Shown here one piece after another: positions 14,865-38,145 of a stretch of 64,000 nucleotides of DNA. A program made the position numbers and the translations under genes. The DNA is from Mitsuaria sp. 7 (GTDB taxonomy: Bacteria; Pseudomonadota; Gammaproteobacteria; Burkholderiales; Burkholderiaceae_C), in the NCBI RefSeq assembly GCF_001653795.1, contig NZ_CP011514.1:434001-498000 (forward strand). Direction: 5' to 3'. The notes below the pieces were generated by a model. That model saw only the letters and a program-made list of their open reading frames with translations, did no database searches and had not been told where the DNA came from. How positions within the stretch are numbered: the stretch's first letter is position 1; the number at the start of each line of letters is the position of its first letter.

Positions 14865-14952
14865 GCACTCAGGGGGAATCGCGTGAAGGAATGCGCACAG
14901 TCCGCGGGGCGCAAGGCGGCGTTCGATTCTGTGCTTGCGAGGAGGGGCTCGC

Positions 14953-17504: not shown

Positions 17505-17509
17505 TTGTT

Positions 17510-17540: not shown

Positions 17541-17546
17541 CGCCAG

Positions 17547-19674: not shown

Positions 19675-19796
19675 TAGTTCGCTTCCATGTCCAACGGCTG
19701 CTCTGGTCCAAGTCTGGACCCCGGCCGGGCAGAGGCACGGCTGCTCGCCGCGGGTTCCGCATCAGGGCGAGCTGTTCCAGACGTCCAATGTCGAAG

Positions 19797-20747: not shown

Positions 20748-20807
20748 GGAGCCTCCCATCGCGTATTCGTTACGCGATTTAATATTTAGGAGGCAAATGT
20801 AATTGGA

Positions 20808-21665: not shown

Positions 21666-21853
21666 GGAAGTGGGCGGTGGTCGCTCAATCTCCTGTGTAG
21701 GAACGACCGCTTAAACGCGCCGACCTGGCGGCGCAGCCGCGGAGTGTAGCTTTTCGAGCGTGCTCAGAGCCGGAGCTGCTTATCTTTGCGGCACCGTCCT
21801 GCGGCTTCGCTCACGACGCGAACTCGGCTGACGAAATTTGGAGACCCCTCAGG

Positions 21854-22285
21854 TCAAGGCGTTTGCACAAACCTCACGCTGCTCAGGAAGTCATGAACCA
21901 TGAGGCATGCCAGAGCGAGTAAAGCCGCGAACAAGCACCAGAGAGCGAGCAACGTCAAGGAAAGCGCAGTTCGATTGCTCGCAAAAACGCGATGCAGCTG
22001 GCTCGACACAGTCAAGAACGCGAGCAGCACCAACGCTGCGATACCAAGGGAAAGTAGCGCAAACACTATCGTGCCCACGAGATTTGCCACGTTCAGTTTT
22101 CCGTCAATGGCGATGAGCGTGGTGGTCACGGATGCGACCGAAATTCCGACAACGGACAGGAGGTCCGCGCATATGGCTAAGCGCTCCTTCGCATTGCCGA
22201 ACTTTAGAGTTTCATAAATTGTGCGCATATTTCGAGTGAGGGGCCGAGGGCGCTGGTTCTCTGCGAGACGAGCGATACCAATCAT
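21854..22285 (-). CDS. Small integral membrane protein
   Basis: 143 residues from ATG 22,285 (ATG 22,229, MRTIYETLKFG, is an equally possible start). Three hydrophobic segments are visible (LLSVVGISVASVTTTLIAI, VGTIVFALLSLGIAALVLL, LTLLALWCLFAALLALACL). No family recognised. It is divergent from another membrane protein gene at 22,507 with about 220 bases between them. Confidence 0.6.
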   Translation of the reverse strand: MIGIARLAENQRPRPLTRNMRTIYETLKFGNAKERLAICADLLSVVGISVASVTTTLIAIDGKLNVANLVGTIVFALLSLGIAALVLLAFLTVSSQLHRVFASNRTALSLTLLALWCLFAALLALACLMVHDFLSSVRFVQTP

Positions 22286-22506
22286 TTTAGGTCCGCTCGG
22301 ACGCCTCGGTAGTGCGTGCAATTGGCAAATTCGATTGAGACAAGGGAAGACCCTTGGATTTAGATGTCGGAATTTTCCTCGGAATTTCGGCGTGACGAGC
22401 GCGCCTGCTTCAACGTGACGACTAGCCAACGCTTTCGTCTAAGAACCTGGTCAAACTAGCGAAGTTCAGGGGTGCAAGTGCACGCATTAAGGTAAAAATC
22501 GCTGGT

Positions 22507-23307
22507 ATGACAGCAATCGACAAACAACTAGGTGGAGGAAGTGCCAACGAAACGGGGACGTCTCCTTGGCTCCTAGTGTTCAGCGAAAAGTACTTCAAGT
22601 TGCTTGCGACCACGTGGGCTGCCGCAGTCGTGATGGCAACGCTCTTCGCGGTCAACTACCACTTCGGATTTGTGAGAGGCTTCGGCTTCCCAGAGGTGGC
22701 GTTTTCAATGGACTGGCAGAACATAGCGCTGCTGGCTCATCGTTCGTTGCTCTCTGTGTGGGGCAACTACATCTTTCCACTCATAGACGAGCCCGCTTTC
22801 ATCGGCTTATGCGCCTTCGTCGGGTTCCTGGCAGTGGTCTTGTTCTTCTTGAATAACCTGAAGACTCCCAAGACTGGGCTGTCGCCGCGGCAGCATTGGT
22901 GGAAGGATTTCTTGACCAAAAAGTGGGTCATTCGGCCCCTCGTAGTGGTCTGGAGCGCGATGACCGCGGTGGTTCTCTTCCGCGCAATTCTGTTGACGCT
23001 CGCTCTCTTCCTGGTGTTGCCCTTGGTCGCCTACAAGAGCGGCAAACTTGATGCAGCGAAGTTCTTGAGTAGCCGGCCCCGCTGCGATGCGGCCCTCCAA
23101 AAGGGCGATGACCCCTGCTCGACGCTCATCTTGAAGACGGTTGATGCGGCGGGGAAGGATGCTGTGGTCACCTTACGGGGTCGCGTCGTTGTCGGCAACG
23201 AGAAATGGATTGGGTTGGTGACCGATACGGAGTCCGTGGCGCTACCGATGACGATGGTTCGGTATGGCATCGCGGTGGAACCTGCATCGGTAGGCCGTAA
23301 GCCGTAG
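22507..23307 (+). CDS. Integral membrane protein with soluble C-terminal domain
   Basis: 266 residues. Membrane segments at about 30-50 (LLATTWAAAVVMATLFAV), 95-115 (FIGLCAFVGFLAVVLFFL) and 145-175 (VVWSAMTAVVLFRAILLTLALFLVLPL). The C-terminal 90 residues form a soluble beta-rich domain (AVVTLRGRVVVGNEKWIGLV). Not recognised. It precedes the ATPase/methyltransferase operon by 150 bases in the same direction and could belong to that system as a membrane effector (inference). Confidence 0.7.
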   Translation: MTAIDKQLGGGSANETGTSPWLLVFSEKYFKLLATTWAAAVVMATLFAVNYHFGFVRGFGFPEVAFSMDWQNIALLAHRSLLSVWGNYIFPLIDEPAFIGLCAFVGFLAVVLFFLNNLKTPKTGLSPRQHWWKDFLTKKWVIRPLVVVWSAMTAVVLFRAILLTLALFLVLPLVAYKSGKLDAAKFLSSRPRCDAALQKGDDPCSTLILKTVDAAGKDAVVTLRGRVVVGNEKWIGLVTDTESVALPMTMVRYGIAVEPASVGRKP

Positions 23308-23459
23308 GCTCATCAGCGGCCAAGGGAAATCGAGCGCTGGTCCGGAAGATTATTACGACAGATAGGCTGTAGCAGCGCGAGGTGAGGCCATAGGGGCCTG
23401 CACCTTCGGGTGCTCCAGTGAGTTGTCAACGTCAGAGCTTTAGGAGGCTTGGAGAAAGA

Positions 23460-25421
23460 ATGATTGAAGGCGTTGATATCGACGAAGTGGAGTTCAATGA
23501 CATGGGCATTGGTGTCTGGGCGCTCAAGCCCGGCGCCAGGCTGCGCATGTCGAGGCTTGCAAAGACGGTGGTGCTGGCCGGCCCGAATGGCGCAGGCAAG
23601 ACGCGCATCTTCAACATGTTGGTGAGCCTTGGTCAGAAGATTCAGCCCGCAGATGCCGTTAAAGGCAGTCTTGCCTATCTTCTGCAAGCTGAACATGAGC
23701 TTGAGAGTCGAGTCCTTGAAGTGTCTCGCCAGAGGGCGAAGTATCCACCGCAAGCGCTCAGCTTGGTGGAAGCGGAGCGTCAGCATCGCGATGCGTTCAA
23801 CAAGGTGGCCGACATCCAACGCGGGATTCGACACGCGACGGTGCTCCAGCGGTCAAGTGGAGAGGTACCGAGTTTCGTAAGGTTCGTCCCCAAGGTTACC
23901 TCCTTGCTCGACCCGGGAGGCTTCACCCTGAGCGACATTGCCGGACGGGCCCAGCGGCTCTCGAACAGTTCCGAAACGGCGGAAGCGCTTGCTCCGTCTT
24001 ACGCCTTCAGCGTGCTTCGGCAGGCAAACGATGCGGAACTAAAGCGACGCCGGGATGGTGGGGGTGGTTCGTCTGATGCTGAGCTTCGTGCGCAGGCCTT
24101 GATAGATATTCTTGGCCGCCTTCTCGGTGCTGAAACGGCCGTGACGGTCGAAAACGACATGCTCTTGATTGGTGGATTTGCGCCCTCGCAAGGTTCTCTG
24201 TCGGCGGGTCAGCAGGTCTTGTTCCAGTATGGCTGCATGCTGCACGCCCAACAGGAATACTTGCAAGACAACATCGTGCTGATGGACGAGCCGGAAAATC
24301 ACTTGCACCCGGCCGTGCTGGTGCAGGTCATGACCACTCTCGCGTCCATCTTGAGGCACGGTCAGTTGTGGGTTGCGACGCATTCGGTGCCCCTCATCGC
24401 TCATCTGATGTCGCAGGACGACGACTGTCTTTGGTTTGTGAATGATGGGACTGTGACGCGTGCCGGCCGAAATCCTGAGGTGGTGCTGGAAAGCCTACTT
24501 GGAGGGCCTGAAGGGACGAGGAGTCTCCAAGAGCTCATGCAGCTTCCAAGTGCTTATGCGGCGACGCGATTTCTGGGAGAGTGTCTGGTTGCGCCTGGAA
24601 CCGTAGGGCCAAACATCAAAGACCCACAGATGCTGCAAATTCGGGAAGTTCTGCGGCCGCTGGCTGAAGCAGCTGCGCAGAGCGGGCGTCCCCTCCGAGT
24701 ACTTGACTTCGGGGCAGGCAAGGGCAGGTTGTTGGCTTCGCTTCGGGAGACCTATCCCGACGCCTCCCGATTGTTCGACTACATCGCGCTAGACGACAGC
24801 GCTAGGGACCGGCCCGAATGTGTCCATCAGATTGAACTGACTTACGGTAAGCAATCAGCAGCCGATGTCTCGGGCAGATGGTTTGAGAACATCTCGAGTC
24901 TCCGAGCTGGTTTGGATGAGGGGAGTTTTGATGTCATCGTGCTCTGCAACGTGCTCCACGAGGTTCATCCCGACCAATGGCTCGGCGACTTCTCAGTCTT
25001 CGCAAGCTTGCTGCGTACCAATGGCGCGTTGCTGGTGGTTGAAGACTATGCGTTGCCGACCGGGGAGCTTGCGCATGAGTTCGGTTTCTTGCTGCTCGAC
25101 CAGCTCGAGTTGAAGCATCTGTTCCAAGTATCGGAGGCCGATAGGGACCGACACCTCTTCTTGCGCGCTACGCCTGACAAACCGCCCCACAAGGACCGCT
25201 TGGTGGTGCATCTGATTGGCAGGGAACTTTTGCAGCGAGCATCGCGCGACAGCCAGGCTGCGGCTATCGGTGAGCTCAAGAAGCGAATGATGAGCGAGGT
25301 CCGAAGGCTCGTGCAAAGCAACTCGGACAAAAGCGTAGTCGGGAGAGACTACGCGAGAGCTGCCCAACTGCTTGTGAACGCGGAGCTCTGGCTTGAGGCG
25401 CGCGGCCGTACGGCTCAGTAG
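23460..25421 (+). CDS. ABC-type ATPase fused to a methyltransferase-like domain
   Basis: 653 residues from ATG 23,460, chosen for GGAG five bases upstream. Residues 30-330 form an ABC/SMC-like ATPase: Walker A GPNGAGKT (41-48), signature-like SLSAGQQ, Walker B IVLMDEPENHLHP with Asp276/Glu277, and H-loop THS with His308. Residues ~410-560 form a class I methyltransferase-like fold: VLDFGAGKG (Asp416) and VIVLCNVLHEVHPDQW, then GALLVVEDY. The C-terminus is helical. I know OLD-like and RloC-like defence ATPases with this type of head, but not this fusion. The next gene has a nuclease domain, so the pair may be a defence operon in which the ATPase senses invading DNA. Confidence 0.85.
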   Translation: MIEGVDIDEVEFNDMGIGVWALKPGARLRMSRLAKTVVLAGPNGAGKTRIFNMLVSLGQKIQPADAVKGSLAYLLQAEHELESRVLEVSRQRAKYPPQALSLVEAERQHRDAFNKVADIQRGIRHATVLQRSSGEVPSFVRFVPKVTSLLDPGGFTLSDIAGRAQRLSNSSETAEALAPSYAFSVLRQANDAELKRRRDGGGGSSDAELRAQALIDILGRLLGAETAVTVENDMLLIGGFAPSQGSLSAGQQVLFQYGCMLHAQQEYLQDNIVLMDEPENHLHPAVLVQVMTTLASILRHGQLWVATHSVPLIAHLMSQDDDCLWFVNDGTVTRAGRNPEVVLESLLGGPEGTRSLQELMQLPSAYAATRFLGECLVAPGTVGPNIKDPQMLQIREVLRPLAEAAAQSGRPLRVLDFGAGKGRLLASLRETYPDASRLFDYIALDDSARDRPECVHQIELTYGKQSAADVSGRWFENISSLRAGLDEGSFDVIVLCNVLHEVHPDQWLGDFSVFASLLRTNGALLVVEDYALPTGELAHEFGFLLLDQLELKHLFQVSEADRDRHLFLRATPDKPPHKDRLVVHLIGRELLQRASRDSQAAAIGELKKRMMSEVRRLVQSNSDKSVVGRDYARAAQLLVNAELWLEARGRTAQ

Positions 25422-25466
25422 GCTGCACAGCAAGTGAGAGCAAAGGTCCGATGGAGCATTTGAACT

Positions 25467-26540
25467 TTGAAGAATGACGCAATTGTTGGGAAGGCAACAT
25501 CAGAAGTGGAAAAGCCTTCGTCCAGGCTGCTTGTGCGACTTGCAGCTGCGGCAGATGCGCGCGGCCAAGTGCCGCCCGACGTACGCTCGTTTTTAGATGA
25601 CCTGAAAGCCGCGAAGGGATACACCGGAGAGCGCCTGGATGTTCTGCCGAGAATCGGTGAACTGCTGTACGCGCTCAAGCTCTCAGGCTTCGACATCGTT
25701 CCTTCAGGTCGCAGCGATGACGCGCCAACGAAAAGGACCATCCGTGTGGAATGGGACAAACGGATGGTGGCGTACGTCCCCTCAGACCCTTTTGAGCGGC
25801 GGAACGACCTCATCGGGTTGTGCTACTTTGAACCAAGTAGTGGACTCACCCCACAGGTCGTGCCTGACGTGTTTGACCTTCAAGACTTCGCCAGGCAGCG
25901 AGGTGTTCCTGAGGGCCACGTGGTTCTTCGGAGGCACAGTGGAAATTGGTACCTGCGCATTCAGGATTTTGGGACGGCACTCACGCTCATCCGCGGTCAC
26001 GCTGAAAAACTGGATGAGCGACATGCTGCTCCAGTTGCTCGCGGTTCTCGAGCTTCTCAAGGGGCTCCAGCACCCATGGAGCCTCGGAGGTACGAAGAAG
26101 TGCGGAGCGCATCGACGTCTCGCACCCTTCGTGACTACCTTGAAGAATTCTCTGGCCATACTTCGCGGGCTGGTGTGGAAGCGGGAGAACGGTACGTGGA
26201 GCATGGCCTCATCGTGGCCGCGCTGGAAACTGCAGTCCACGCCACAGGTGCGGTGAAAAGCTCTACGGCCGTTGACCTCGCCTGTCTGCGGAAGGACGAG
26301 ATTTTGCTCTTTGAGGTGAAGACGTCGTCTACCACCACGAATGTCTACACCGCGGTGGGCCAGCTTCAACTTCATGGACAAAGCATCTCCTCAGAGTTCA
26401 ACCTCAAGATTCGTCGCCTGATGGTTCTGCCTGAGTTGCCTCGTGCTGACTTCATCCGGAACATGCCCGCCCTAGGAATCGAGCTGGTCACGTTCGAGAG
26501 GGTGGACGGTCGCTACAAGTTCGCAGGCTTCATTGGCTAA
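25467..26540 (+). CDS. Protein with C-terminal PD-(D/E)xK nuclease-like domain
   Basis: 357 residues from a TTG at 25,467; no in-frame ATG precedes it and a GGAG lies 11 bases upstream, so the start is uncertain. The N-terminal half is unrecognised. Residues ~235-330 hold the nuclease-like core: GLIVAALETAVH, VDLACLRKDEILLFEVKT with Asp270, Glu283 and Lys285, then TAVGQLQLHG, the helix pattern of restriction-type enzymes. It follows the ATPase/methyltransferase gene by 45 bases on the same strand and is probably its effector. Intact catalytic residues suggest an active nuclease. Confidence 0.8.
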   Translation: MKNDAIVGKATSEVEKPSSRLLVRLAAAADARGQVPPDVRSFLDDLKAAKGYTGERLDVLPRIGELLYALKLSGFDIVPSGRSDDAPTKRTIRVEWDKRMVAYVPSDPFERRNDLIGLCYFEPSSGLTPQVVPDVFDLQDFARQRGVPEGHVVLRRHSGNWYLRIQDFGTALTLIRGHAEKLDERHAAPVARGSRASQGAPAPMEPRRYEEVRSASTSRTLRDYLEEFSGHTSRAGVEAGERYVEHGLIVAALETAVHATGAVKSSTAVDLACLRKDEILLFEVKTSSTTTNVYTAVGQLQLHGQSISSEFNLKIRRLMVLPELPRADFIRNMPALGIELVTFERVDGRYKFAGFIG

Positions 26541-26584
26541 GCAGTTTGGTTGCATCCGAGGACTTGAAGACTGGCGAAACAAGC

Positions 26585-26782
26585 ATGGTGCCAACGAAGT
26601 GCGCGGCGCGGCAGCCTGAGATGCAAGGCATCGAACCATGGATTGCACGACATGTGCGGCAGGTCGCGGGCACCAGGCTCTATTCAAGGGAAGTCGGCGC
26701 CATCGAGAGACTCATCAGACAAGCGAGGAGAGAAGCTGATGGCAGAAATCGAAATTTGGCGAGGGGACATCGTCCTTGTTGA
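26585..26782 (+). CDS. Possible small partner (antitoxin?) of MazF
   Basis: A 65-codon frame that overlaps the start of the mazF-like gene by 44 bases. The middle reads IARHVRQVAGTRLYSREVGAIERLIRQARREA, a plausible helical segment, and its position just upstream of the toxin is where an antitoxin is expected. It matches no antitoxin family I recognise, and the last 15 residues lie in the toxin's reading region, so it may be spurious. Confidence 0.3.
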   Translation: MVPTKCAARQPEMQGIEPWIARHVRQVAGTRLYSREVGAIERLIRQARREADGRNRNLARGHRPC

Positions 26783-27104
26783 CCTGAGCGGAGCGCTCGG
26801 CGGCGAGAAGAAGAACGATGCAAGCATTGGGGCTAGACCTTGTGTCGTCGTTCAGAACGACGGCGGGAACAGAGCATCTCCGCTCACCATAGTCGCTCCA
26901 CTCAACGACGCGAAGCAGTACAAAGGCTATCCAACGCAGGTTCAGGTGACTCCTCAGGATGGCGTGCAGAAGGATTGCATCGTGGACTGCGGGCACCTAA
27001 GAAACATCGACCGCGACGCGCGGATTCAGAAATGGCTCGGGCGTCTATCGGCTGCAGCGATGACGCGTGTGAACGAAGCGCTTAAAGCGAGCCTTGGGTT
27101 GTGA
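26739..27104 (+). CDS. MazF/PemK-family endoribonuclease toxin
   Basis: 121 residues from ATG 26,739, preceded by GAGGAGA. The MazF/PemK fold is clear: IEIWRGDIVLVDLSG at the N-terminus, ARPCVVVQND, then SPLTIVAPLN and DCIVDCGHLRNIDRDARIQKWLGRLS with the C-terminal helix. These toxins cleave mRNA at short sequences and are held by an antitoxin usually encoded just upstream. No standard antitoxin gene (MazE, CopG or AbrB type) is visible; the small frame at 26,585 is the only candidate. Confidence 0.9.
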   Translation: MAEIEIWRGDIVLVDLSGALGGEKKNDASIGARPCVVVQNDGGNRASPLTIVAPLNDAKQYKGYPTQVQVTPQDGVQKDCIVDCGHLRNIDRDARIQKWLGRLSAAAMTRVNEALKASLGL

Positions 27105-27204
27105 CTCAAAGCAGACCACGCTTCGTCCTTTAAGTGATGCATGCTTAGCTCAGCCAACCGCGTCGTTGGGTTGGGTGGCAAGCGGTCGGAGTTTCGTCAC
27201 CCAA

Positions 27205-27924
27205 TCAATGCGAAGTCCCCTTTCCGGAACTAGGCGTTGAGGGAAGTGTGCTCGTCACCGGATAGCCTGCGCAGAATCTGACGGACAGCGTGTTGAGGTG
27301 GCTTCGAACCAAGAGGTCGGTTTTTTCCCCCGAGGTGGCGGTGACGACGCACGCGGCGAAGCAGCCCACGCTCAGCGGAACGTAGAGTCGTAGCGTCCAT
27401 TTGGAAGAGACCTCGGCTCGAGGCGCATGCTCATCTTTGCGCTCAGCAATGCGGTCTTGAACAATGATGGAGCCGCCCGTCGCCATCAGAGCAAGCGTCA
27501 GGAACGCTCCCGTCAGCACAATCAGACTTGCCACATCCTGGCATGGTGTGCCTACCCACGGTTCGCCATAGCTGAACCACAGCAGGGATAGCGTGACCGA
27601 TGAGAAGCACAAGATGTGCGCCAGGAATCCGAGAACTGGTGCAAACAACCAGCTGTCGAGGTCAGGGGATATGTCGGCGCCTTGAAGGAGCACTGCGGTT
27701 GTGGTCAGGAAGCCGGCGGAGGCCAAGATGAATGGATGAACCTTCCAGGCGTGGGTCCAGAGGTCATAGACAGCACTCTTCGCGGCGGGCACGCCAGCCA
27801 TTGAGAGGCCAATGAGGAGGCCTGAAACCAGCAGGCCGGGGACGCCATGGTGCACGGCTTCGTGAGCTAGTCTCTGGAGGGCGATGACAACGGGGTGGTT
27901 CCAGAAGCCTGATTCAGCGGACAT
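27205..27924 (-). CDS. Integral membrane protein
   Basis: 239 residues with about five membrane segments (VPGLLVSGLLIGLSMAGV, FILASAGFLTTTAVLL, FAPVLGFLAHILCFSSVTLSL, SLIVLTGAFLTLALMAT, LYVPLSVGCFAACVVTA). No family recognised. It is divergent from the small membrane protein at 27,967 and convergent with mazF. Confidence 0.65.
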   Translation of the reverse strand: MSAESGFWNHPVVIALQRLAHEAVHHGVPGLLVSGLLIGLSMAGVPAAKSAVYDLWTHAWKVHPFILASAGFLTTTAVLLQGADISPDLDSWLFAPVLGFLAHILCFSSVTLSLLWFSYGEPWVGTPCQDVASLIVLTGAFLTLALMATGGSIIVQDRIAERKDEHAPRAEVSSKWTLRLYVPLSVGCFAACVVTATSGEKTDLLVRSHLNTLSVRFCAGYPVTSTLPSTPSSGKGTSH

Positions 27925-27966
27925 GGATAAAGAGCCTTGCTACACGGTGCCATCTGGGAGGAAAAG

Positions 27967-28203
27967 ATGGGACGCAAGCAGCCGAGGCAATTACTGAAAG
28001 ACGATGGGCTGGCATTTTTGTTAGCGCTACAGGTGCTCGCGCTCTACTCCACCTTGCTTGTCGTGATGTTTGGCTCGCAGGCGGATGCTGTGTTGCTGTG
28101 GCTGTGGCTAATCTGCCTCATGGCACCCGGGGCGGTCGTGTTCGGAGTTGGACTCTTAAGCTTCGTGCTAAGTCGCCGACGGTCGGCAAGCCTGAGGCGC
28201 TAA
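27967..28203 (+). CDS. Small two-pass membrane protein
   Basis: 78 residues from ATG 27,967, with GGAGG six bases upstream. Two membrane segments, FLLALQVLALYSTLLVVMF and LWLICLMAPGAVVFGVGLL, are followed by a basic tail (SRRRSASLRR). Not recognised. It lies between the cargo membrane protein and the convergent fifth transposition gene. Confidence 0.65.
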   Translation: MGRKQPRQLLKDDGLAFLLALQVLALYSTLLVVMFGSQADAVLLWLWLICLMAPGAVVFGVGLLSFVLSRRRSASLRR

Positions 28204-28255
28204 GTCTTGAACCTGCTTGACGCCTTGAAGGACTAGAAACGACCCATCGGAACCC

Positions 28256-29341
28256 CTAGCCTCGCTGCTTGTTCAGTACGTCAAGAATCGACTGCCAGCG
28301 GCCTGACTTCTGCCAGCGGTGATACGCGATAGAGACGCTCGTGTGCGGGATTCCTTCTGCGTACCTTGTCTCGGTCCAGGATGTACCCGCGGTGAGCTTG
28401 GCCAAGATGCCGTCAACGATGAGCCGCTGGTCGTGCACGTTGCCGGTCTTGCCGTCATGGCTTCCTCCACGGGAGAACAGCGGGGCAATCTCAGACCATT
28501 CTGCGTCGGAGAGCGCAGACGTTCGGTTGCTGTGGAGCTTGATGGAATCGTCCTTGGCCCGTAGCGGTTTCAGTCCGCTGGCCACAACTTCCATGGCCTC
28601 ATGGAACTTGATGACCCTAGCATGTTCGTTAGCGAACTCAAACGGCTCCTCGCGCGGTTCTAGCGAAACGACAGCCAGTTGCGTGACATAGAAATTTCGA
28701 GCGTGCGCGACTCCGTGCACCACCATGTGCGACCAGGCCTTCGGAAGCTGCAACCCCAAGCGGCCGTGAGTGGCGCTGGCGTAGATGCTGTTCCACATCT
28801 CCCGTGCCGATGGAAATGAGTACGCCCAGGACAGTGGTTCGACAATCGTTGCCTTGTTGCTGGTATCGGCGCTGTACCGGTACGACGCGACCATGGCCAC
28901 CACGCCAAAGCCGCCCGCCTGCGACGCGTCACCCGAGTACGTCACCACCGACTCGAGCGACTTACCGCTAAATGCGAGGTCGAACACGGGGTCGTGCGGC
29001 CGCAGCATCGCGCGCATGAGCACCAAGGCCGGCACGACAACGCGCATCCCGTTATGTATGAAAGCCCAGGCGTCGTGAGCCGTGTCGCCGTTGAGGTCCA
29101 TCGACAGTGCGCACGCGTACTCTAGGAATGATGCCGGTCGCCACTGCTCGAACTCGCTCTCAACTCGCATGCGGTCTCGCTTGTTATCGGGCAAGCCTTG
29201 GAACGTGAGGTTGTCTACGTCGATGCCTACCCTCATGCGGCTCGTGCCCGTGCCGTAGGCAACAAAGCGGCCATCTACTCGCTTGATGCCCATAACAAGC
29301 TCGGCGCCGGCATTGCTTGAACGCTTGTAGCGATTCCTCAT
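28256..29341 (-). CDS. Fifth gene of the tns operon: unknown domain fused to an IS5-type DUF4096 domain
   Basis: 361 residues, 31 bases after tniQ on the same strand, with AGAGG before the ATG. Residues ~1-270 are unrecognised (KRVDGRFVAYGTGTSRM, then EPLSWAYSFPSAREMWNSIY). Residues ~273-358 match DUF4096, the N-terminal helical DNA-binding domain of IS5/IS4-family transposases: LSDAEWSEIAPLF, DQRLIVDGILAKLTAGTSW, VSIAYHRWQKSGRWQSIL. The catalytic DDE domain of such transposases is absent, so the domain seems domesticated. In Tn7 the fifth gene (tnsE) directs insertion to replicating DNA; this protein is not a recognisable TnsE. Its position suggests an alternative target selector or regulator (inference). 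Confidence 0.8.
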   Translation of the reverse strand: MRNRYKRSSNAGAELVMGIKRVDGRFVAYGTGTSRMRVGIDVDNLTFQGLPDNKRDRMRVESEFEQWRPASFLEYACALSMDLNGDTAHDAWAFIHNGMRVVVPALVLMRAMLRPHDPVFDLAFSGKSLESVVTYSGDASQAGGFGVVAMVASYRYSADTSNKATIVEPLSWAYSFPSAREMWNSIYASATHGRLGLQLPKAWSHMVVHGVAHARNFYVTQLAVVSLEPREEPFEFANEHARVIKFHEAMEVVASGLKPLRAKDDSIKLHSNRTSALSDAEWSEIAPLFSRGGSHDGKTGNVHDQRLIVDGILAKLTAGTSWTETRYAEGIPHTSVSIAYHRWQKSGRWQSILDVLNKQRG

Positions 29342-29372
29342 GCGTTTGACCTCTCAGCCGCTTGGGACAGCA

Positions 29373-30578
29373 TCAAGTGGGTGTGGCCGGTTGACCGCCT
29401 GCACCGACGGTGCCGCGGACGCTGGTGCGACGTCGACGTTGACGCCTACCGGATTTGCGTAGCGAGGACTCCGTCGCCTTGAAGGCGGTGAGTACCGCGG
29501 CGGTCGCAGGGAATCTGGACCGGTCGTGCCGATAAGCCGACCATTGGCCCAATGAGCTCATCATCTCGGTGACCGTGGTGAGCCTGCCTTCGCGCGCAGC
29601 AGCCTCGATGAGGCCCGACACGAGGCTCGCGACCTGAGCGTCCAGTGCGGCGTAGTCCCGAGTCCTCTTGCCGCCTGGCTGGTACGAGAACGTGCGGGGC
29701 TGGTCAGTCGAGTGCGCGAGGAAGGTGCGCAAGAGCACGTGCTTGAGCGGGCTGAACGGGCCAGAGCTGCGGGGCCGAACCATGAGAGCAGGCCATGAGT
29801 GACTCGGACGACCAAGTCGGCACCCGAGTTGGTCCAGCAACTCATGACCATACAGGGCGCCGAGGTCCTTGGAGACCTGGGCGCTTGCCACCGTCCCCCA
29901 CTTGGCCACGAACCCTGTGGCGTGGGCAACCAACTGGTAGACATGCTGCCAGTCGTCATGCCAGTCCCGAGCCTTGTTCATCACGGATGCGCTGAGCACC
30001 GCTACGGGCTGCAGGACAGTTCGTGGAAGTGGCGCCTGCATGGGTGCTCCCGATTGATATTGGGGGATGTCTCCCTCGTACGCGCGGGCCGACTGAGCCA
30101 GGGCGACGTCGCTCTCGTGAAGCGCCGTGCCATGTTTGTGGCAGACGTAGACGGCAGGTAAGGAATGAGACCGATGCCAGTAGCTCTCGCCGAACCGCTT
30201 GATGTCCACCGCGACGCACCTGGGGCAGTAGCGGAGTGCGTTCACACCCTGTGTGGCGGCCTGGACGAGAGCAGCGGAACACCTCGCGTCATCTCCCGTG
30301 TCCGCAAGCGCTCGCCGTTCCTGCTCGCGCGCCAACGCTGGTGGTGCATGCGAAGTAGCGTAGGGGAAGATGGTGTGCTCCCAAAGCAGCTTGTCCGCAG
30401 AGACATGCATCGCGCTGGCCAATCGAGGGATGTCGACCGGAAGGAAGAACGAAAGATTGGACATGTTCCGCCCGAAGACCTCTCTCAGCAGCCGCTTCTG
30501 CGGGAGCGCGCAGCGGATGATTGCGCGCATGACCACGCTCCCGGCTAGCTCGTCGGGGTAGGGCTTAGGCATCGTCAT
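29373..30578 (-). CDS. tniQ: TniQ/TnsD-family target-selection protein
   Basis: 401 residues; its ATGA start overlaps the tnsC stop. The TniQ zinc region is clear: RYCPRC (Cys118, Cys121), SYWHRSHSLPAVYVCHKHG (His135/His138, Cys146, His149). The N-terminus (PYPDELAGSVVMRAI) is typical of the family. The C-terminal ~200 residues should bind target DNA (HELLDQLGCRLG, then TVTEMMSSLGQWSAYRHDRS). TniQ/TnsD proteins recruit TnsC to a chosen site. Tn7 TnsD (508 residues) recognises glmS; here the element sits in comEC, so comEC codons just right of the element are the likely recognition sequence. Shorter TniQ proteins also serve CRISPR-associated elements, but no Cas genes are seen. Confidence 0.9.
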   Translation of the reverse strand: MTMPKPYPDELAGSVVMRAIIRCALPQKRLLREVFGRNMSNLSFFLPVDIPRLASAMHVSADKLLWEHTIFPYATSHAPPALAREQERRALADTGDDARCSAALVQAATQGVNALRYCPRCVAVDIKRFGESYWHRSHSLPAVYVCHKHGTALHESDVALAQSARAYEGDIPQYQSGAPMQAPLPRTVLQPVAVLSASVMNKARDWHDDWQHVYQLVAHATGFVAKWGTVASAQVSKDLGALYGHELLDQLGCRLGRPSHSWPALMVRPRSSGPFSPLKHVLLRTFLAHSTDQPRTFSYQPGGKRTRDYAALDAQVASLVSGLIEAAAREGRLTTVTEMMSSLGQWSAYRHDRSRFPATAAVLTAFKATESSLRKSGRRQRRRRTSVRGTVGAGGQPATPT

Positions 30579-32293
30579 TCGACAGGGACGAGGGTCTCGA
30601 TATCACGGACCATGTTGAGCTTGATGAGCTCATCCAGAATGGATGCCGTGGACTTGGATTGCGCCGAAACCTTCGCCGCATTCACGACCGCGTTGCGGTA
30701 GTCCAGCGGTCGCTCCTCCAAATTCAACGCACTAACCGCGGCTTCGAGCTTGTCGACCTTGTTGGGACTTTTGGCCTTCGCTTTGCGGAGCGGCGCGGTC
30801 TCGTTCTTCGCCAACTGGACAATCGCTTCGAGCATGTCTTTGGCCGTGCCTTCCGCCGCGACTTCTTCAGCCGCTGCCTCCGCGTCCTTCTCGTTCAAGC
30901 CCAAGACGCGTGCGGCACCCTCGAGGCGAGCGCGGAAGTCGGGGTTTCCGGGACGTGTGGATGCTGCAGCGTTGCGCTTGTCGCGCGAGAGGTACCGATT
31001 CATCATCCGCTCGACGTAGTCGGCGATGTCGAACGGCGCCAAGTCCGGAAACTTCGCCATTTGCTTGGGGGACCGGGAGGCCAGCGCGCCCACCATCTCA
31101 TGTACGAAATGCATGTCCTTTTTGTAGACATCAAGCAGCAGCGCTTCTGACAGGGTCTCCGTCTGGTCAAGCATCGCGCGGACCTGAGCGATGACGAAGA
31201 GCTTCAACGCGAGGTCGATGATGCCTTGGCTGCAGTCGTAAATCGTGTCGTAGAGCTGCGGAGTCAGTGCCACCGGATTCTTGACCCACTGATAGGTCCA
31301 GAGCCGGTCGATGAAGTCATGCCATTCGCCAGGCTCGTCGATGAGCTTACCGTCCTCTTCCTTAGACTCCCACTTCGGAAGTGGAGACCAGTCCCCCAGC
31401 CCCGGGCCGATAGAGCGCCTGGCTTGTCGGAGGTCCAGCTTCATGATTCGGGACGCTTTGTTGGTGCCTACGTAGAGCTGCGGAATTTTTCCCACGTTGC
31501 AGAGCGAAACCAGGTCCGTCATCATCACCTGCTCATCGCCGCCCTTATTTGTGATGTTCTGAATTTCGTCTACGACCAGCAGTCCGAGGTAGTGCTCGTT
31601 CATCAATCGGCTCGCGATGTGCAGCAGCGTCTTTCCACTGTGGCGGCCCTTGGCAACGTACTTTTCGTAGTAGTCAGCATCGGGGATTAGCGAGTCGAGC
31701 TGAGTGATGATTTGGACGGCTAAAGCTTTGAAGCTCGCCCCATCCCGCTCCATCTCGATGTGCAGATAGGTCACCTGGAAGAAGTGAGCCCTAGGGTGGT
31801 AGATGACCTGTGGATAGCGCGCCATCACCCGCCGAATGGTGGTGCTCTTTCCCATGCCTGGGATGGCCAGAAGAGCTTCTGAGCTCCCCATCACTACGGT
31901 GTGATGGGTCTGGCGAAATGTGATGCCCTCTCGCTGCAGCTTGTAGATTTCCTGGAAGATTGCCGCGTGTCCACGCGACTGTGGCTTGCGGCCGACTAGG
32001 CCTGCTCGGAGTCGCGCATCCAACGTCGTGGCGAGATAGATGTGTGAAGTCATGGGAAACATGACGTTCATCAGGCCGAGCAGCTCCTGGATTCGCTCAA
32101 AGTTTTTCCACTCGCGCTGCTCGGAGTCGAATTCGGGATAGAGCTCCAGTGACTCAAAGATTTCGTCTTCGTCCAGTGCGACGGGTAGAGCCTCGATTAG
32201 CGGATTTCCCTGAAAGCGCTTGATGCGCTGAGGCTTGTAGTTCGCGACCTCCACGTGGGGCGGGAGCAAGCTCAGGTCCATCTCGATGGGCAT
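30575..32293 (-). CDS. tnsC: TnsC-family AAA+ transposition regulator
   Basis: 572 residues. Walker A AIPGMGKST at 143-151 and Walker B LLVVDEIQN with Asp242/Glu243 mark the AAA+ domain; MMTDLVSLCNVGKIPQLYVGT follows as the sensor region. TnsC forms filaments on DNA, senses target immunity, and links TniQ to the TnsAB transposase. The C-terminal ~150 residues are an Ala/Lys-rich tail that probably contacts TnsA/TnsB. Lies ten bases after tnsB and overlaps tniQ by four bases. Confidence 0.92.
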   Translation of the reverse strand: MPIEMDLSLLPPHVEVANYKPQRIKRFQGNPLIEALPVALDEDEIFESLELYPEFDSEQREWKNFERIQELLGLMNVMFPMTSHIYLATTLDARLRAGLVGRKPQSRGHAAIFQEIYKLQREGITFRQTHHTVVMGSSEALLAIPGMGKSTTIRRVMARYPQVIYHPRAHFFQVTYLHIEMERDGASFKALAVQIITQLDSLIPDADYYEKYVAKGRHSGKTLLHIASRLMNEHYLGLLVVDEIQNITNKGGDEQVMMTDLVSLCNVGKIPQLYVGTNKASRIMKLDLRQARRSIGPGLGDWSPLPKWESKEEDGKLIDEPGEWHDFIDRLWTYQWVKNPVALTPQLYDTIYDCSQGIIDLALKLFVIAQVRAMLDQTETLSEALLLDVYKKDMHFVHEMVGALASRSPKQMAKFPDLAPFDIADYVERMMNRYLSRDKRNAAASTRPGNPDFRARLEGAARVLGLNEKDAEAAAEEVAAEGTAKDMLEAIVQLAKNETAPLRKAKAKSPNKVDKLEAAVSALNLEERPLDYRNAVVNAAKVSAQSKSTASILDELIKLNMVRDIETLVPVE

Positions 32294-32303
32294 TTGTTGC
32301 TCC

Positions 32304-34877
32304 TTATGAGTTTTGACGGCGCTTGGCGGCCATGCGTTCCCGCAACGTCATTGGGCGCTGTGGAGCTGGCGAAGGCGTGGAGGGATGTTGCGGTGGGTCG
32401 CCATCTCCGTCGTCCTCGGGCTGGGTATGCTCGTACGCAGCCTTCGCGCCTTCGACCTCGAAATCCAGCAGGTCGGGCACGTCTTCGTACTGGGGCGAAT
32501 CGCCATTTGCGTTAGCCACCGCCGACGCTTGTGCGGCGGGGCGTTCAGTATCAGATGGCGACGGATTGAGAGCAGGCGCAGGGGCTGGAGGGGTAGCGGA
32601 CAGAAGGGTGTCAACCGCTGGGGGCGAACCGGCGGGTGCCGTGGCGCTCGCGTTCGGACCCCTCGGCTCGGCGCTGGGTTGCACTCTGACCCCGCTAATG
32701 GGAAAAGCCCCGACGGGAGCGCTCTCCTGGGGAGGCTCCACGACTTGAGACTGGGCTCTGTCGCCCGGTGTCCGGCCCGGGTGGAAAGCACCTGCGGTTT
32801 GTATCCGTTCTTCGCGCAGGTCTTCGGCACGAGCACCGGGAACATCCTTTCGACGGCTGGAATAGGACTCATCTTGCGTTTGCTCCCGCATTTCTTTTAG
32901 GGCGCGTTCGTTAATCGGGCCCACATGCTTGGCGAACTCGTGCCTAGCCTCGCTTTTCTCGTCTTTGGCGGGGGCAGTTATTTTGTCCACCGCTTGAAAG
33001 CTCCGGTGCACTTCGGCATAGGACATCCCTTTGAATTTGACGCTATCGCCAGCGAGCTGTAGCGGCAGTCGTTCGCCGCTTCCGTCGGGAGCATCGACGA
33101 ATATTTCATCGACAAGTCGATAATCGTAGGAGAAGTTGAAGGGCTTACGCTCGATGCGTCCTTCAACCAGCCACCCACGTCGTTCCGCTTCGGCGGATTG
33201 GTAGAACATGCGTTTAAAGGTGAGCCCGTCTTTGTGTATGGTGGTGCTTTCGCGTGGAAGTAGCTCAGCTCGTACTTTGTCGAAGTCGATGATATCGAGG
33301 AGTCCCATGCGCTTTCGAACTCCGTGTCGGAATAGTTCCCGAGGCGAAGGCGGGACCTCATCTTCAATTTGTTGAAAGTTGAGCGGATATTCGACCTGCA
33401 TTGTCCGGTTGTAAGTAATAATTGCTTTTACAATGATGGACTCAAATTCATTGATGTTTAATGCCGCGTTCTTGTCGTATTTGGCGCGTCTGCGCGCTCT
33501 ATTGGCACTGTCTGGGGAATAGGCGATGGTGACTGGGGCAATGATTTGATGTAGCAATGCGAAGCCACATTCGACCAGAGGTTTCATATCAGGCCGCAAT
33601 CCAGGAACGTTTGTTATCATTGCTCTAAGAGAGCGAGTGATTCGACGTGCCTGTTTGTGGACAAGCTCACCTTGGTCGGCTACAAAAGATTCCGGCAGGA
33701 TTCCATGGGCAGGCCAATCCAAAGGGTCGTACTTAATTCCAAGACGTCTGCAAAGCTTTTCCTTGTCCTCGCCGATGCTCAGGATTGCAAGCATAGCGGG
33801 TGTGTATGAGGCGTTTTCAAATCCAACATACCAGCCAACAATCATTCGACTATCACGGTCAATGATGAGATACAGCGTCGGCTTTCCGACGATGTGGGCT
33901 CGATTCCGAAGCGAAACAAGTACAACGTCCGCGATAGTTGCGTCAAACTCGTAGATGTGACCAACGCCATGCGTCCTTAATTGAATTGAGCCGGACGTGG
34001 CGCGATGCTGTGTTGAAAACACTTTGTCGCCTTTTCGGCGACGAATAATTGTCTCTAGAGGATAATTTCTATGGAGAAATCGATAGAACTGGTTGTAGCT
34101 AGGTGCCTCGACTCCTGGCTTTAGATGCACTTCCCCATTTCCGTCAACGTACGTGTAATGTTTTTGTTTGAGTTGTTCATGTGCATCCTTCAATGTGACG
34201 GTAGCGTTGAGTTTCAAGAATACGTTCTCAAGCACATCACGCATCGCTTCATCATCGGACAGCGTGCGCTGGAACGGTCGTAGTCCGTTCGCCGTTTTAC
34301 GACCTCGAAGTGCAGTGCCTGTCTTATCCCGGTGTGCGCAGTTCTGATAACGGCCGCGTAGTGCATCCTGTGTTTGGCCGCCACGCCAATAATCTCGAAG
34401 GTCCCGAAGAAGCGTCTTGGCTGAGCCCGTGACGAGGGGAGGCAGTTCGATATCAGGTATATTGGCAAGTTCGATTAGCTCCAACCTTGCCGCCGCTTGC
34501 AACTTTGCTTCAGCGCTGAGTTCCGATTCACGCGTCTTCAGCAACTTGTTTCGCAGCGATGGATAAAAAATATCGGGGACCAAATCGACTAGCGGACCAA
34601 TGCGCTTCCAAGCGCTGTCGACGTGCAATGACTCCGCGGTTGTTAACTGGATACGCGTTATGCCCCTCGGCGGACCGTGAGAGTTAGGTGTGAAGGGGCG
34701 AAATCCTTCGGGAAGCTTTGAATATTTAAGGCAGTAGGGCAAAGCCTTTTCCGCAGCATCGCCTACCAGGATTAGCCATGCATCGTCGGCGTCGATGTCA
34801 AAAAATAACAGTCGATGCGTTGTTTCATCTTGAAGGCGGACAAGAAGCTGATTTCTATGGAATGGAATATCACTCAT
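32304..34877 (-). CDS. tnsB: TnsB-family DDE transposase
   Basis: 857 residues, longer than Tn7 TnsB (702). The integrase core has Asp312 (IYEFDATIADV), Asp401 (SFVADQGELVH) and Glu436 (KPLVECGFALLH), the DDE triad. The N-terminal region carries the end-binding helices (LSDDEAMRDVLENVFLKL). The last ~150 residues are a Pro/Ala/Ser-rich disordered tail ending in a basic MTLRERMAAKRRQNS, where the TnsC-interacting end is expected. TnsB cuts the 3' ends and joins them to the target. The coding sequence is noticeably AT-richer than the cargo in its N-terminal two thirds. It overlaps tnsA by eight bases. Confidence 0.93.
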   Translation of the reverse strand: MSDIPFHRNQLLVRLQDETTHRLLFFDIDADDAWLILVGDAAEKALPYCLKYSKLPEGFRPFTPNSHGPPRGITRIQLTTAESLHVDSAWKRIGPLVDLVPDIFYPSLRNKLLKTRESELSAEAKLQAAARLELIELANIPDIELPPLVTGSAKTLLRDLRDYWRGGQTQDALRGRYQNCAHRDKTGTALRGRKTANGLRPFQRTLSDDEAMRDVLENVFLKLNATVTLKDAHEQLKQKHYTYVDGNGEVHLKPGVEAPSYNQFYRFLHRNYPLETIIRRRKGDKVFSTQHRATSGSIQLRTHGVGHIYEFDATIADVVLVSLRNRAHIVGKPTLYLIIDRDSRMIVGWYVGFENASYTPAMLAILSIGEDKEKLCRRLGIKYDPLDWPAHGILPESFVADQGELVHKQARRITRSLRAMITNVPGLRPDMKPLVECGFALLHQIIAPVTIAYSPDSANRARRRAKYDKNAALNINEFESIIVKAIITYNRTMQVEYPLNFQQIEDEVPPSPRELFRHGVRKRMGLLDIIDFDKVRAELLPRESTTIHKDGLTFKRMFYQSAEAERRGWLVEGRIERKPFNFSYDYRLVDEIFVDAPDGSGERLPLQLAGDSVKFKGMSYAEVHRSFQAVDKITAPAKDEKSEARHEFAKHVGPINERALKEMREQTQDESYSSRRKDVPGARAEDLREERIQTAGAFHPGRTPGDRAQSQVVEPPQESAPVGAFPISGVRVQPSAEPRGPNASATAPAGSPPAVDTLLSATPPAPAPALNPSPSDTERPAAQASAVANANGDSPQYEDVPDLLDFEVEGAKAAYEHTQPEDDGDGDPPQHPSTPSPAPQRPMTLRERMAAKRRQNS

Positions 34878-35724
34878 CGGTGCACGGCGGATTCTTGTTT
34901 GTAGGCGAAGGTGCGAGGATGCGGAACGTGCTCATTGGTAAGCGCTCCGGAAATGCGTTGTTGAGGTCCATATACAAAATTCTTTCATTTAGCAGCATTC
35001 GTGCGACCCTAAGTCCCGTTCCCTTATCAATACCATTTCTGCGGTCGAACTCCTCGCAATAATCTGAGAGGGATTGCTCAGGGGTGTGAGCGCGAAGTTC
35101 TTGAGTCATTCGAAGCTTGTATTCTTCGAAATAGTCGTCGTATGCAATGATTGCGTTCTCGCTCTTCTGTGCCCGTCGTATCCATCCGAGGTTCTTAACT
35201 TTTTGTGCTGGCAGTAATTCCTTAACTACCAAGTGAAGCGGAATTCCCAGTTGAGCCAAGCTTTCTCTCATGACCTCCAGCAACTCGACTACACGAGGTG
35301 ATTCGAGTTCGTGCGCGACTTTGACTTCGTAAGCCTCGATACGTTCGCCTTCGTCCGTGGACCTGTCCACAAGGAAGTCCACTGTCATCACGTAAGGAAC
35401 ATATGTGCCTTTGTAGAATTGGTGTTTCACTCCTAGGGAGTTGGCGACTTCCTGCGTCAGTTCCCGGTCAAGTGGAAATTGTTCTCGCACATCAGTAACG
35501 CTCACGGCACGCTCCAGAATATAGAAAAGAGATTGCTCTCCGTCGGATAGAAGTTGGTGATTTCTCCCGAACCTTTCACTATATGGTTCGTGCGTGGTGC
35601 CGTCGTAATAGCCTTCTGTTGTGTACAGCCAGGGAAGGTATGTCGCCAATCTTCCTTTTCCGCGGCCCATTTTTTGATATTCCAGAATGTCTTCTTCGGA
35701 CATTCTTTGTTTGCCTCTAGACAT
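34870..35724 (-). CDS. tnsA: TnsA-family 5'-strand endonuclease of the transposase
   Basis: 284 residues, close to Tn7 TnsA (273). Catalytic residues line up as Glu63 (SDGEQSLFYIL), Asp116 (YVMTVDFLVD), Glu133 and Lys135 (AYEVKVA), a PD-(D/E)xK nuclease; Tn7 TnsA has E63, D114, Q130, K132. TnsA cuts the 5' strands so that the element moves by cut-and-paste. The N-terminal helical and C-terminal (DYCEEFDRRNGIDKGTGLRVARMLL) domains are both present, the latter being the TnsC-interacting region. AAGGCG lies before the ATG at 35,724. First gene of the tns operon, nearest the right end. Confidence 0.93.
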   Translation of the reverse strand: MSRGKQRMSEEDILEYQKMGRGKGRLATYLPWLYTTEGYYDGTTHEPYSERFGRNHQLLSDGEQSLFYILERAVSVTDVREQFPLDRELTQEVANSLGVKHQFYKGTYVPYVMTVDFLVDRSTDEGERIEAYEVKVAHELESPRVVELLEVMRESLAQLGIPLHLVVKELLPAQKVKNLGWIRRAQKSENAIIAYDDYFEEYKLRMTQELRAHTPEQSLSDYCEEFDRRNGIDKGTGLRVARMLLNERILYMDLNNAFPERLPMSTFRILAPSPTNKNPPCTDE

Positions 35725-35882
35725 TCGCTATTCGCCTTTTTTGAATGAACTTTGGCCGACACCTGCGGACATGGCCATGGCGCACGCAGTGGTCGTGCGT
35801 GGGTTCCACTATCGAGGTGACAGTTTGAAAATGCATCAAATTTCGGAAAGGCCACGCGTTACAGTAAGTATTCTGAAATTAA

Positions 35883-35892
35883 CTACATGTAG
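35883..35892. promoter_or_regulatory. Candidate operator palindrome
   Basis: A perfect 10-base palindrome CTACATGTAG in the 263-base space between the divergent tnsA and HTH genes. Position fits an operator for the HTH protein, which could control both promoters. The evidence is only location and symmetry. Confidence 0.3.
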
Positions 35893-35987
35893 AGGTTTTG
35901 TGCGTCGCTCGCGCAAATGCGTTCTTAAGCGACAAGTCTGCTGTTTTGAAATACGCTTTCAGCGACTTCACTCATGAGAGAGTCGCG

Positions 35988-36296
35988 ATGGCCAAGCAGA
36001 CGCAGGACCTTGAGTTCGTCACCAAGAATGAGCTTGCTTCTATGCTTAAGGTGACAGCGCGGACGGTTAGCAACTACGTCCGCAAAGGGGCAATTCCTCC
36101 CCCCGTAAAGGTGGGGCGAAGGGCGCTGTGGCGTCGAGTGACCGTTGCGCAGATGTTCGAAACGCTAGAAAGCGCTACTGCGTTTCAGAACCAGGCAAAC
36201 TTCTTGGGCCGAGAGATTGCGTTGGCGAAGGAGGCGGCGGCTAGGAGCGTAGAAGGGTTTGCAAACGTCCAAGAGTCGACGGAAAAGTCGGCGTAG
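35988..36296 (+). CDS. Excisionase/MerR-like helix-turn-helix regulator at the transposon end
   Basis: 102 residues from ATG 35,988 (GAGAG upstream). Residues 9-50 form a winged-helix of the excisionase/AlpA type: VTKNELASMLKVTARTVSNY, then RKGAIPPPVKVGRRALWR. The rest is helical (EIALAKEAAARSVEGFANVQE). It is divergent from tnsA and its 3' end lies over the innermost terminal repeat (36,247), so it is the outermost gene of the element. Likely represses or regulates tnsABC; a direct architectural role at the end is also possible (inference). Confidence 0.8.
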   Translation: MAKQTQDLEFVTKNELASMLKVTARTVSNYVRKGAIPPPVKVGRRALWRRVTVAQMFETLESATAFQNQANFLGREIALAKEAAARSVEGFANVQESTEKSA

Positions 36297-36363
36297 AGGG
36301 ATTTGCAAAAGTGGAACCGGAGAAGAGGCGTTTGCAACAACGTAGAAGCTGATTGCAAACGGC
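36247..36363. repeat. Transposon right end: four TnsB-type binding sites
   Basis: Four related sites in the same orientation begin near 36,247 (GCGTAGAAGGGTTTGCAAAC), 36,291 (GCGTAGAGGGATTTGCAAAA), 36,320 (GAGAAGAGGCGTTTGCAACA) and 36,340 (ACGTAGAAGCTGATTGCAAA). The shared core is GTAGAAGGNTTTGCAAAC. The three outer copies are closely packed, like the overlapping TnsB sites of the Tn7 right end. The outermost copy ends three bases or so before recognisable comEC codons. Confidence 0.85.
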
Positions 36364-36365
36364 CA

Positions 36366-38145
36366 GAATGCCGCCGACTGGGGGCTGTACCGCGACGCCG
36401 GCGTGTCGCATCTGCTGAGCGTGAGCGGCCTGCACGTGACGATGTTCGCCTGGCTCGCCGGCGCCGCGGCGGGCTGGGTCTGGCGGCGCAGCGCGCGGTT
36501 GTGCCTGTGGCTGCCGGCGCCGCGCGCGGCGATGTGGATCGGCGTCGTCGCGGCCGGGCTCTACGCGCTGTTCTCCGGCTGGGGCGTGCCGTCGCAGCGC
36601 ACGGTCGGGCTGCTCGCGATCCTCGCGCTGCTGCGTCAGACCGGCGCGCGCTGGCCGTGGCCGATGAGCCTGTGCGCGGCCGCCGCCGGCGTGTGCGCCG
36701 CCGACCCGTGGGCGCTGACGCAGGCCGGCTTCTGGTTGTCGTTCTGCGCCGTCGCGCTGCTGATGGCCGCGGACCATCGTGCCGATCCCGGCTGGCGCGG
36801 CGCGCTGCGCAACGCCTGGCACACGCAGTGGGTGGTGACGCTCGGCCTGGCGCCGCTGACGCTGCTGCTGTTCCAGCAACTGTCCATCGTGGGCCTGGTG
36901 GCGAACGCCTTCGCCATCCCGCTGGTCTCGTACGTGATCACGCCGCTGGCGATGCTGGGCGCGGTGTGTCCGCCGTTGTGGACGCTAGGCGCGTGGTGCG
37001 TCGCGCTGATGAACGCCCTGCTGGAGGCGCTGCGCGTCCTGCCGCTGGCGGTCTGGCATCTGCCGTGGCCGACCGCGTGGGCGCAGGCGGTGGGACTGGT
37101 CGGCGGTGCCGCGCTCGCGATGCCGTGGCCGTGGCGCCTGCGACTCGGCGGGCTCGCGCTGTGCGTGCCGATGTTCTGGCCGGTGATCGAGCGCCCCGCG
37201 CCGGGTCACCTGGAACTCTGGGTGCCCGACGTCGGCCAGGGCGGCGCCACGATCCTGCGCACGCAGGGGCACACGATGGTCTTCGACGCCGGCCCGTCGT
37301 GGGGGCCGGGTTCCGATGCCGGGCAACGCGTGCTGCTGCCGCTGCTGTACGGGCTCGGCGAGCGACGACTGGATGTGCTGATGATCAGCCACGCGGACCA
37401 GGACCATGTGGGCGGCGCCGCCAGCCTGCTCGCGGCGATGCCGGTCGAGCGGAGGCTGGGCGCGGTGCCGGGCGGGGAGGGCTGCCGGCGCGGGCAGCGG
37501 TGGACCTGGGACGGCGTGCGCTTCGAGGTGCTGTGGCCGATCGTGGAAGGAGAGGCGGGCGGAGCGGGCGGGGCAGGCAGCACGGGCGAGGTGAGCCAGA
37601 AACGCAAGGAAGCCAGGCGCAATGCGGGTTCCTGCGTGCTGCGCGTCGAAGCCGCCGGCCGACGCGTGCTGCTGACCGGCGACATCGAGGCGGCGCAGGA
37701 GGCGCGCCTGGTGCGGGAGGACGGCGAGGAGGGCTTGCGGTCCGAAGTCCTCGTCGTGCCGCATCACGGCAGCCGGACTTCGTCGACGGTCGCATTCGTG
37801 CGGGCGGTCGAGCCGCGCGTGGCCGCGGTGCAGTCGGGATATCTCAACCGCTTCGGCCATCCGAAGCCGGACATCGTGGCGCGTTACCTCGCCGCCGACG
37901 TGCTGCTGCTCAACACGGTCGACTGCGGCGCGTGGCGCTGGCGCAGCGACCGCCGGTCGCCGCCGATCGACGGATGCGAGCGGGCGACGCGACGGCGCTA
38001 CTGGTTGCGCCTGCCGCCGGGCGTTCTGCCCGTGCGCCCGATGCCAGCATCCCTGCCGAAGCTTCCCGACGCCCCCGCCAGCACCGCGGATCCGGACCCG
38101 GATCCTGACCCCGAGGAGACCGTCCCGCGCAGCCTTGCGCCGTGA
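36366..38145 (+). pseudogene. comEC: comEC, 3' part, disrupted by the Tn7-like element
   Basis: About 593 codons of ComEC, the channel that brings single-stranded DNA across the inner membrane during natural transformation. The frame enters at AADWGLYRDAGVSHLLSVSG and continues through the Competence membrane domain (multiple hydrophobic segments) into the C-terminal metallo-beta-lactamase-like domain (VPDVGQGGATIL, ISHADQDHVGG, LLTGDIEAAQEARL, VPHHGSRTS). The N-terminal OB-fold part is missing and there is no native start at the junction; the sequence upstream is transposon end. The ComEC protein is therefore truncated and competence is presumably lost. A remnant could start at GTG 36,403. 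Confidence 0.93.

Follow-up and report, generated by a model that had tools for sequence, protein, structure and literature searches.

The window analyzed here, a stretch of 64,000 nucleotides from Mitsuaria sp. 7 (contig NZ_CP011514.1; G000:C1:434001-498000), carries the right part of a Tn7-like transposon that has broken comEC, the gene of the DNA uptake channel. Comparison with related elements gives good support to a comEC-homing Tn7-like lineage that targets one codon of this gene. Here, we propose that this codon is the chromosomal home of the lineage, that its TniQ/TnsD protein reads comEC, and that a further protein, designated X, is a second selector; we hold this combined reading with good confidence.

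The element occupies C1:401432-470365 (68,934 bp), and its features are listed in Table 1. The TnsA endonuclease is encoded in one array with TnsB, TnsC, and TniQ/TnsD, as is characteristic of Tn7-like transposons. The initial annotation had recognized a Tn7-like element in comEC, and this identification holds: TnsA, TnsC, and TniQ have Pfam matches, TnsB, for which no Pfam family was found below the 0.001 cutoff, is identified by its identity to Tn7 TnsB, and comEC lies on both flanks. The extent given there (28,256-36,440) has to be enlarged to 68.9 kb. The tnsA-side end lies where it had been placed, at 36,365, after the clustered repeats, and the codons of SGLHV, put at about 55 bases beyond it, start at 36424, 58 bases past the right end. 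The left end and the 5' part of comEC, which were to be sought upstream of the window, were both found there. The left end starts at C1:401432, 32,569 bp upstream of the window, and reads TGGGTGTTTGCAATTAGCTCCTACG in the fetched DNA; it resembles the inverted right end and is directly preceded by comEC up to ...GCGCGGTGAAT, the 5' part of the gene ending at C1:401431. Both ends contain several repeats in inverted orientation, probably of the TnsB-site type, and have TG...CA termini, again as in Tn7-like elements. A duplication of five bases had been expected, but GAAT, only 4 bp, is present on both flanks. The right flank starts at -4 of codon 240 (counted by hand). The insertion destroys the gene, as the annotation had stated, since comEC is cut into 5' and 3' parts around the element.

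Table 1. Features of the comEC-inserted element of Mitsuaria sp. 7 (window positions unless a locus is named)
Feature	Position	Strand	Basis
Right part of Tn7-like element	1..36365		Junction sequences and length
PD-T7-5/PD-T7-1 family defense protein	5739-6770		PADLOC, strong
PemK-type toxin gene	26643-27104		Pfam
X, putative remote TnsE homologue with IS5-type helix-turn-helix (DUF4096) C-terminal domain, 361 aa	28256..29341	-	Pfam, profile-profile comparison, AlphaFold model
TniQ/TnsD, 401 aa, probable comEC reader	29373..30578	-	Pfam, profile alignment
TnsC (AAA/TniB)	30575..32293	-	Pfam
TnsB	32304..34877	-	30% identity to Tn7 TnsB over 564 columns, E 7e-64
TnsA	34870..35724	-	Pfam
Small HTH_17/MerR-type gene between tnsA and right end	35898..36296	+	Pfam
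Right end, clustered repeats TTTGCAA....TCTACGC, terminus CGGCCA	36245..36365		Putative TnsB-site type; left end with similar repeats, inverted
Target duplication GAAT, 4 bp	36366..36369	+	Other copy directly before left end
3' part of comEC (Competence and metallo-beta-lactamase domains), severed from 5' part	36366..38145	+	Adjoins right end directly
Predicted recognition stretch, codons of RDAGVSHLLSVS	36388..36426	+	Analogy with Tn7 TnsD
Gabija GajA and GajB	L004:11341-15181		PADLOC, strong

The genome contains one ComEC N-terminal domain (DUF4131, C1:400796-401278) and one ComEC 3' part. Searches for both gave no second comEC, so that no paralogue is seen. DprA is present in this genome. 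In 10 of the 12 other genus members searched, comEC is one long frame running through the insertion site; in the remaining two, it lies on two contigs (G401) or gave no match (G405). The genome of G405, of the same genus, is 95% complete and shows no ComEC match at all.

Relatives were collected by a protein search, which returned 17 proteins for X and 44 for TniQ (own included), and by running the TniQ alignment against genome contigs, from which 80 loci were kept (the best 18 being L005-L022). An X homologue stands beside Tns genes in 17 of these best 18 loci, with 24-31% identity, and likewise in L026, L031, L032, L034, and L043. Pieces of the comEC 5' part were found in L005, L006, L008, L010, L013, L088, and L096, and every one of them ends at the same residue. 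A whole-genome search with full ComEC covered 34 handles, of which 23 came from the 80 loci and 11 were further genomes; after removal of 5 duplicates, they represent 29 genomes, all reached through TniQ or X homologues. In 15 of the 29 genomes, the gene is cut at residue ~240 and both pieces were recovered; in two (G797 and G802), only the 5' piece was, and in 12 the gene is intact. In nine of the 15 split cases, both pieces share a contig, with about 22 to 61 kb between them. In all cases readable on one contig (10/10, own included), it is the tnsA-side end that points to the 3' comEC piece; a fixed site with this end directed toward the presumed recognized sequence is typical of Tn7-like elements. 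The elements share tnsA, tnsB, tnsC, tniQ, and X, and the hosts of the comEC insertions are environmental bacteria of several families, here mainly within Burkholderiales. A draw of 399 genomes of the order gave eight with an X match. The match is near full length in five of them (own, G088, G466, G669, and G762), and comEC is split in every one; it is split as well in G641, where X and tniQ are truncated. Partial X matches were found in G753, with an intact comEC, and in G770, with one strong ComEC match. The annotation had asked whether homologues of this TniQ stand at the same codon of comEC, and they do so in elements of several host families; close TniQ homologues at many unrelated sites, which would have spoken for another explanation, were not seen, 16 of 18 elements with a long TniQ being in comEC.

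Both junctions were compared in 16 elements (own and 15 others). Their ends read TG...CA with clustered repeats, and the end sequences differ strongly between elements, whereas the target is the same. The right flank starts at -5 to -1 from codon 240, so that the insertion points span 5 bp (ComEC residue ~239-240); in G808, a 72-bp comEC piece lies between two inserts, and its junction was taken as the right one. A perfect 4-bp duplication can be placed in 12 of the 16 elements, namely in our element, G800, G762, G807, G805, G809, G641, and G167 and, with a tied choice of end, in G801, G808, G243, and G061. The probability of 12 in 16 arising by chance is 2e-14, even allowing ten chance alignments per element. 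A dispensable comEC under relaxed selection might collect unrelated insertions, as in Piscirickettsia salmonis, where the part of the report available describes comEC broken by various elements at non-identical positions (PMC12955456). This explanation is already contradicted here because the insertions cluster at a single codon: they fall within 5 bp, have one orientation where readable, occur in hosts of different families, and come with orthologous machinery, and we consider it extremely improbable. A single old insertion could also have been passed on vertically, giving a shared site without repeated homing, and the long TniQ branches leave the ages uncertain. The insertion points, however, lie up to 4 bp apart, the duplication sequences differ, each element has its own end sequences, the hosts span several families, and comEC runs through the site in 10 of 12 members of the genus of our host. 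Vertical inheritance is thus very doubtful.

The question of which protein selects comEC was addressed by comparing the TniQ proteins. Our element encodes one TniQ (the window, L003, and L004 together cover the element), whose residues 1-282 align with residues 1-289 of Tn7 TnsD (profile, E 5e-24). The invariant C118, C121, C146, and H149 fit the CCCH zinc finger of TnsD, as described in the section available of PMC2918618. After the TnsD-like part, the long TniQs have a C-terminal extension of ~100 residues, which is common to the comEC group and has a motif of approximately GxWxxFRHxRxxFPxT...FRxSDxSERQxGRR. The long TniQ (385-439 aa) was read over its whole length in 18 elements. Of these, 16 are inserted in comEC (L005 and L010 judged from the 5' piece only). 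None of the nine elements with a short TniQ (291-339 aa) is, comEC being intact in 9/9; this distribution points to the TniQ with the ~100-residue extension as the likely comEC reader. The TniQ of G061 was not located. The geometry of the site agrees with such a role. TnsD of Tn7 recognizes the final 36 bp of glmS, with insertion about 25 bp away, according to the portion consulted of PMC2918618. From this geometry and the TniQ comparison, TniQ probably reads comEC through its extension. G641 was omitted from the trees for its truncated genes. A second TniQ tree, which also omits L017, L021, L023, L024, and L043 as long-branch or outgroup rows (L021 being a row that speaks against this assignment), groups the remaining long-TniQ rows coherently (93/89; 15 comEC and one glmS); the tree with all rows gives a weaker picture, with three changes of the comEC label.

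Protein X, annotated as "transposase", is by profile comparison a remote TnsE that ends in an IS5-type helix-turn-helix. Profile-profile alignment with 23 TnsE proteins gave a probability of 95.5 and an E value of 1.4e-8 (controls, 0.46, 0.26, and 0.34), so that X has the N-terminal TnsE region. The TnsE_C domain (PF18623) was not found in X, for which hmmscan gave DUF4096 alone; a search for TnsE_C had no match anywhere, but the controls were equally silent, making this search uninformative. An AlphaFold model built from 38 sequences had a predicted local distance difference test score (pLDDT) of 85.7. With this model, Foldseek gave no PDB match at E <= 0.001, and a looser look gave weak matches without TnsE among them, which excludes nothing. 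TnsE in Tn7 chooses replicating or conjugating DNA. X may be a target-independent second selector of this kind, as its occurrence in elements at comEC, at glmS, and elsewhere would fit. Elements that target glmS or comM almost universally have a TnsE homologue, as stated in the part available of PMC11406308. Alternatively, X could itself read comEC via its helix-turn-helix, with TniQ as a mere hub. The X gene often directly follows tniQ, the protein has a DNA-binding-type domain at its C terminus, and in Tn6022 the partner protein TnsF does the reading, according to the available text of PMC10293859. We consider this alternative unlikely, since the glmS element L012 also has X, as do eight of the nine short-TniQ elements with intact comEC, since the X gene of several elements lies at a distance of kilobases or on the opposite strand, and since X is related to a family that selects replicating DNA. 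The comEC label changes four times on the X tree versus three on the TniQ tree (two with the five rows omitted), a small difference.

Several observations weigh against the assignment of a comEC-homing lineage with TniQ as the reader. The comEC pieces are on different contigs in six of the 15 split cases, and several surveyed genomes are metagenome bins. The 4-bp duplication in G801, G808, G243, and G061 needs a choice of end that ties in score with another, and G088, G341, G466, and G669 have no convincing one (G088, G341, and G466 show no duplication, and G669 shows 5 bp with a lower-scoring end choice). L012 from Thiobacillus has a long TniQ, and its end lies 25 bp behind the glmS stop, with comEC intact; its TniQ lacks the SDxSERQxG part of the extension motif. 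L021, with a 385-residue TniQ, is unplaced, and its comEC is also intact; the insertion sites of L021 and the short-TniQ elements were not found by repeats or pairwise locus comparison. The link between extension and target rests on few switches and poorly resolved trees, and nucleotide conservation was no guide to whether a comEC gene carries an insertion (L134 of G808 and L161 of G466, not matched by the site pattern, were dropped from this comparison). Finally, X retains its own DNA-binding domain and could share in the choice of comEC.

In the proposed mechanism, the single TniQ/TnsD would bind conserved codons of comEC (RDxGVxHLxSISGLH) that lie some 20-60 bp past the tnsA-side end, using its ~100-residue C-terminal extension. 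The comEC-bound TniQ would then recruit TnsC and TnsAB to insert, and X would act as a TnsE-type second selector for a plasmid or replication route. Losing DNA uptake may be of little cost to the host and would keep the element from being replaced through transformation; such protection from removal, which the annotation had also raised, is a plausible hypothesis. In the fuller form of this proposal, the elements are an undescribed lineage that reaches its comEC home via a dedicated TniQ C-terminal domain, switches transformation off with each homing event, leaves 4-bp duplications, uses a chimeric TnsE (N-terminal part plus IS5-transposase helix-turn-helix) as the second selector, and has switched its home between comEC and glmS at least once; this fuller form we regard as likely. 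Searches of the open-licence full-text literature gave no description of a Tn7-like element that homes to comEC, for wider queries among the matches listed.

The comEC-homing family is a variant within the Tn7-like transposons, parallel to Tn6022 in comM. Like Tn7 (TnsABCDE, attTn7/glmS), it has TnsA, TnsB, TnsC, TniQ/TnsD, and a TnsE-related protein, and its tnsA-side end faces the presumed recognized conserved codons. Tn7 inserts behind glmS without breaking a gene, whereas our element breaks comEC, and only its relative L012 sits behind glmS, at 25 bp. This X/TniQ element (L012:1-2115) lies at about the Tn7 position, a change of home within the family. The target duplication of Tn7 is 5 bp, and that of our element is 4 bp. 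The TniQ is shorter than TnsD, to which its C-terminal extension did not align, and the TnsE-like X is without TnsE_C and ends in an IS5-type helix-turn-helix. The Tn6022 type (TniQ and TnsF), in the available part of its description (Faure et al. 2023, PMC10293859), is likewise Tn7-like and has its home in conserved codons of a gene for natural transformation, which it disrupts. Our element differs in being in comEC, the uptake channel, rather than comM, and in having a TnsE-related protein beside TniQ; comEC is probably read by a single TniQ that has a C-terminal extension. A further related case, comM islands and transformation, is treated in the accessible part of PMC11472951. Tsy, a tyrosine-recombinase transposon with TnsF, shares comM with a Tn7-like element and, unlike the comEC elements, is described without Tn7-like machinery in the same portion of PMC10293859. 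Sharing of a competence gene may be compared with comEC of G808 (Duganella aquatilis FT26W), where a second cut (L188, G808:C33:40600-60400) lies in the SGLH codons ~60-70 bp from the first. The second insert (~18 kb) encodes a large serine recombinase together with an integrase of the phage type, and the 72-bp comEC piece remains between the two elements. The phage phi1207.3 in pneumococcal comEC/celB is also a mobile element inside comEC that impairs transformation; it is a prophage in another phylum with another integration route, as far as the text available of PMC10383233 describes it.

Beside the core genes, a small gene with a DUF6471 domain, encoded on the opposite strand, immediately precedes tnsA in L006 (4816-5067), L009 (4925-5191), L012 (1660-2115), and L016 (4974-5228). 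The domain was confirmed by Pfam in these four of four checked, and look-alikes were seen by eye in several more loci. Our element has the HTH_17 gene in its place, and the DUF6471 gene is perhaps a regulator. The comEC site reads [LQ]LMR in L135, L139, L150, L155, L156, and L158 (Paraburkholderia and Burkholderia) and VFxR or similar in most others; the elements in these hosts have a short TniQ, and comEC is intact. Ten cargo proteins were scanned with PADLOC and ten proteins with Pfam. Apart from the two strong defense matches in Table 1, the PADLOC matches in the cargo are weaker, and the Pfam matches also include a STAND NTPase, a Na/H exchanger, and others. Defense-rich cargo has been reported for Tn7-like elements, as noted in the part available of PMC8649781. 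A scan of viral contigs with X confirmed no relatives there. Against plasmids, X gave seven records, none covering 80% of X and six matching the helix-turn-helix part alone, and the right end gave no plasmid DNA match.

It has been proposed that mobile elements switch transformation off to avoid replacement via homologous recombination, and the transposon case found in print is Tn6022 in comM. A different Tn7-like lineage at the uptake channel itself would make the targeting of competence genes by such elements a repeated, testable pattern. The domain make-up of X suggests a TnsE rebuilt around a DNA-binding domain taken from elsewhere. With its clear target and the natural switch to glmS in a relative, the small TniQ would be useful for studying DNA reading by TniQ/TnsD and for insertion tools.

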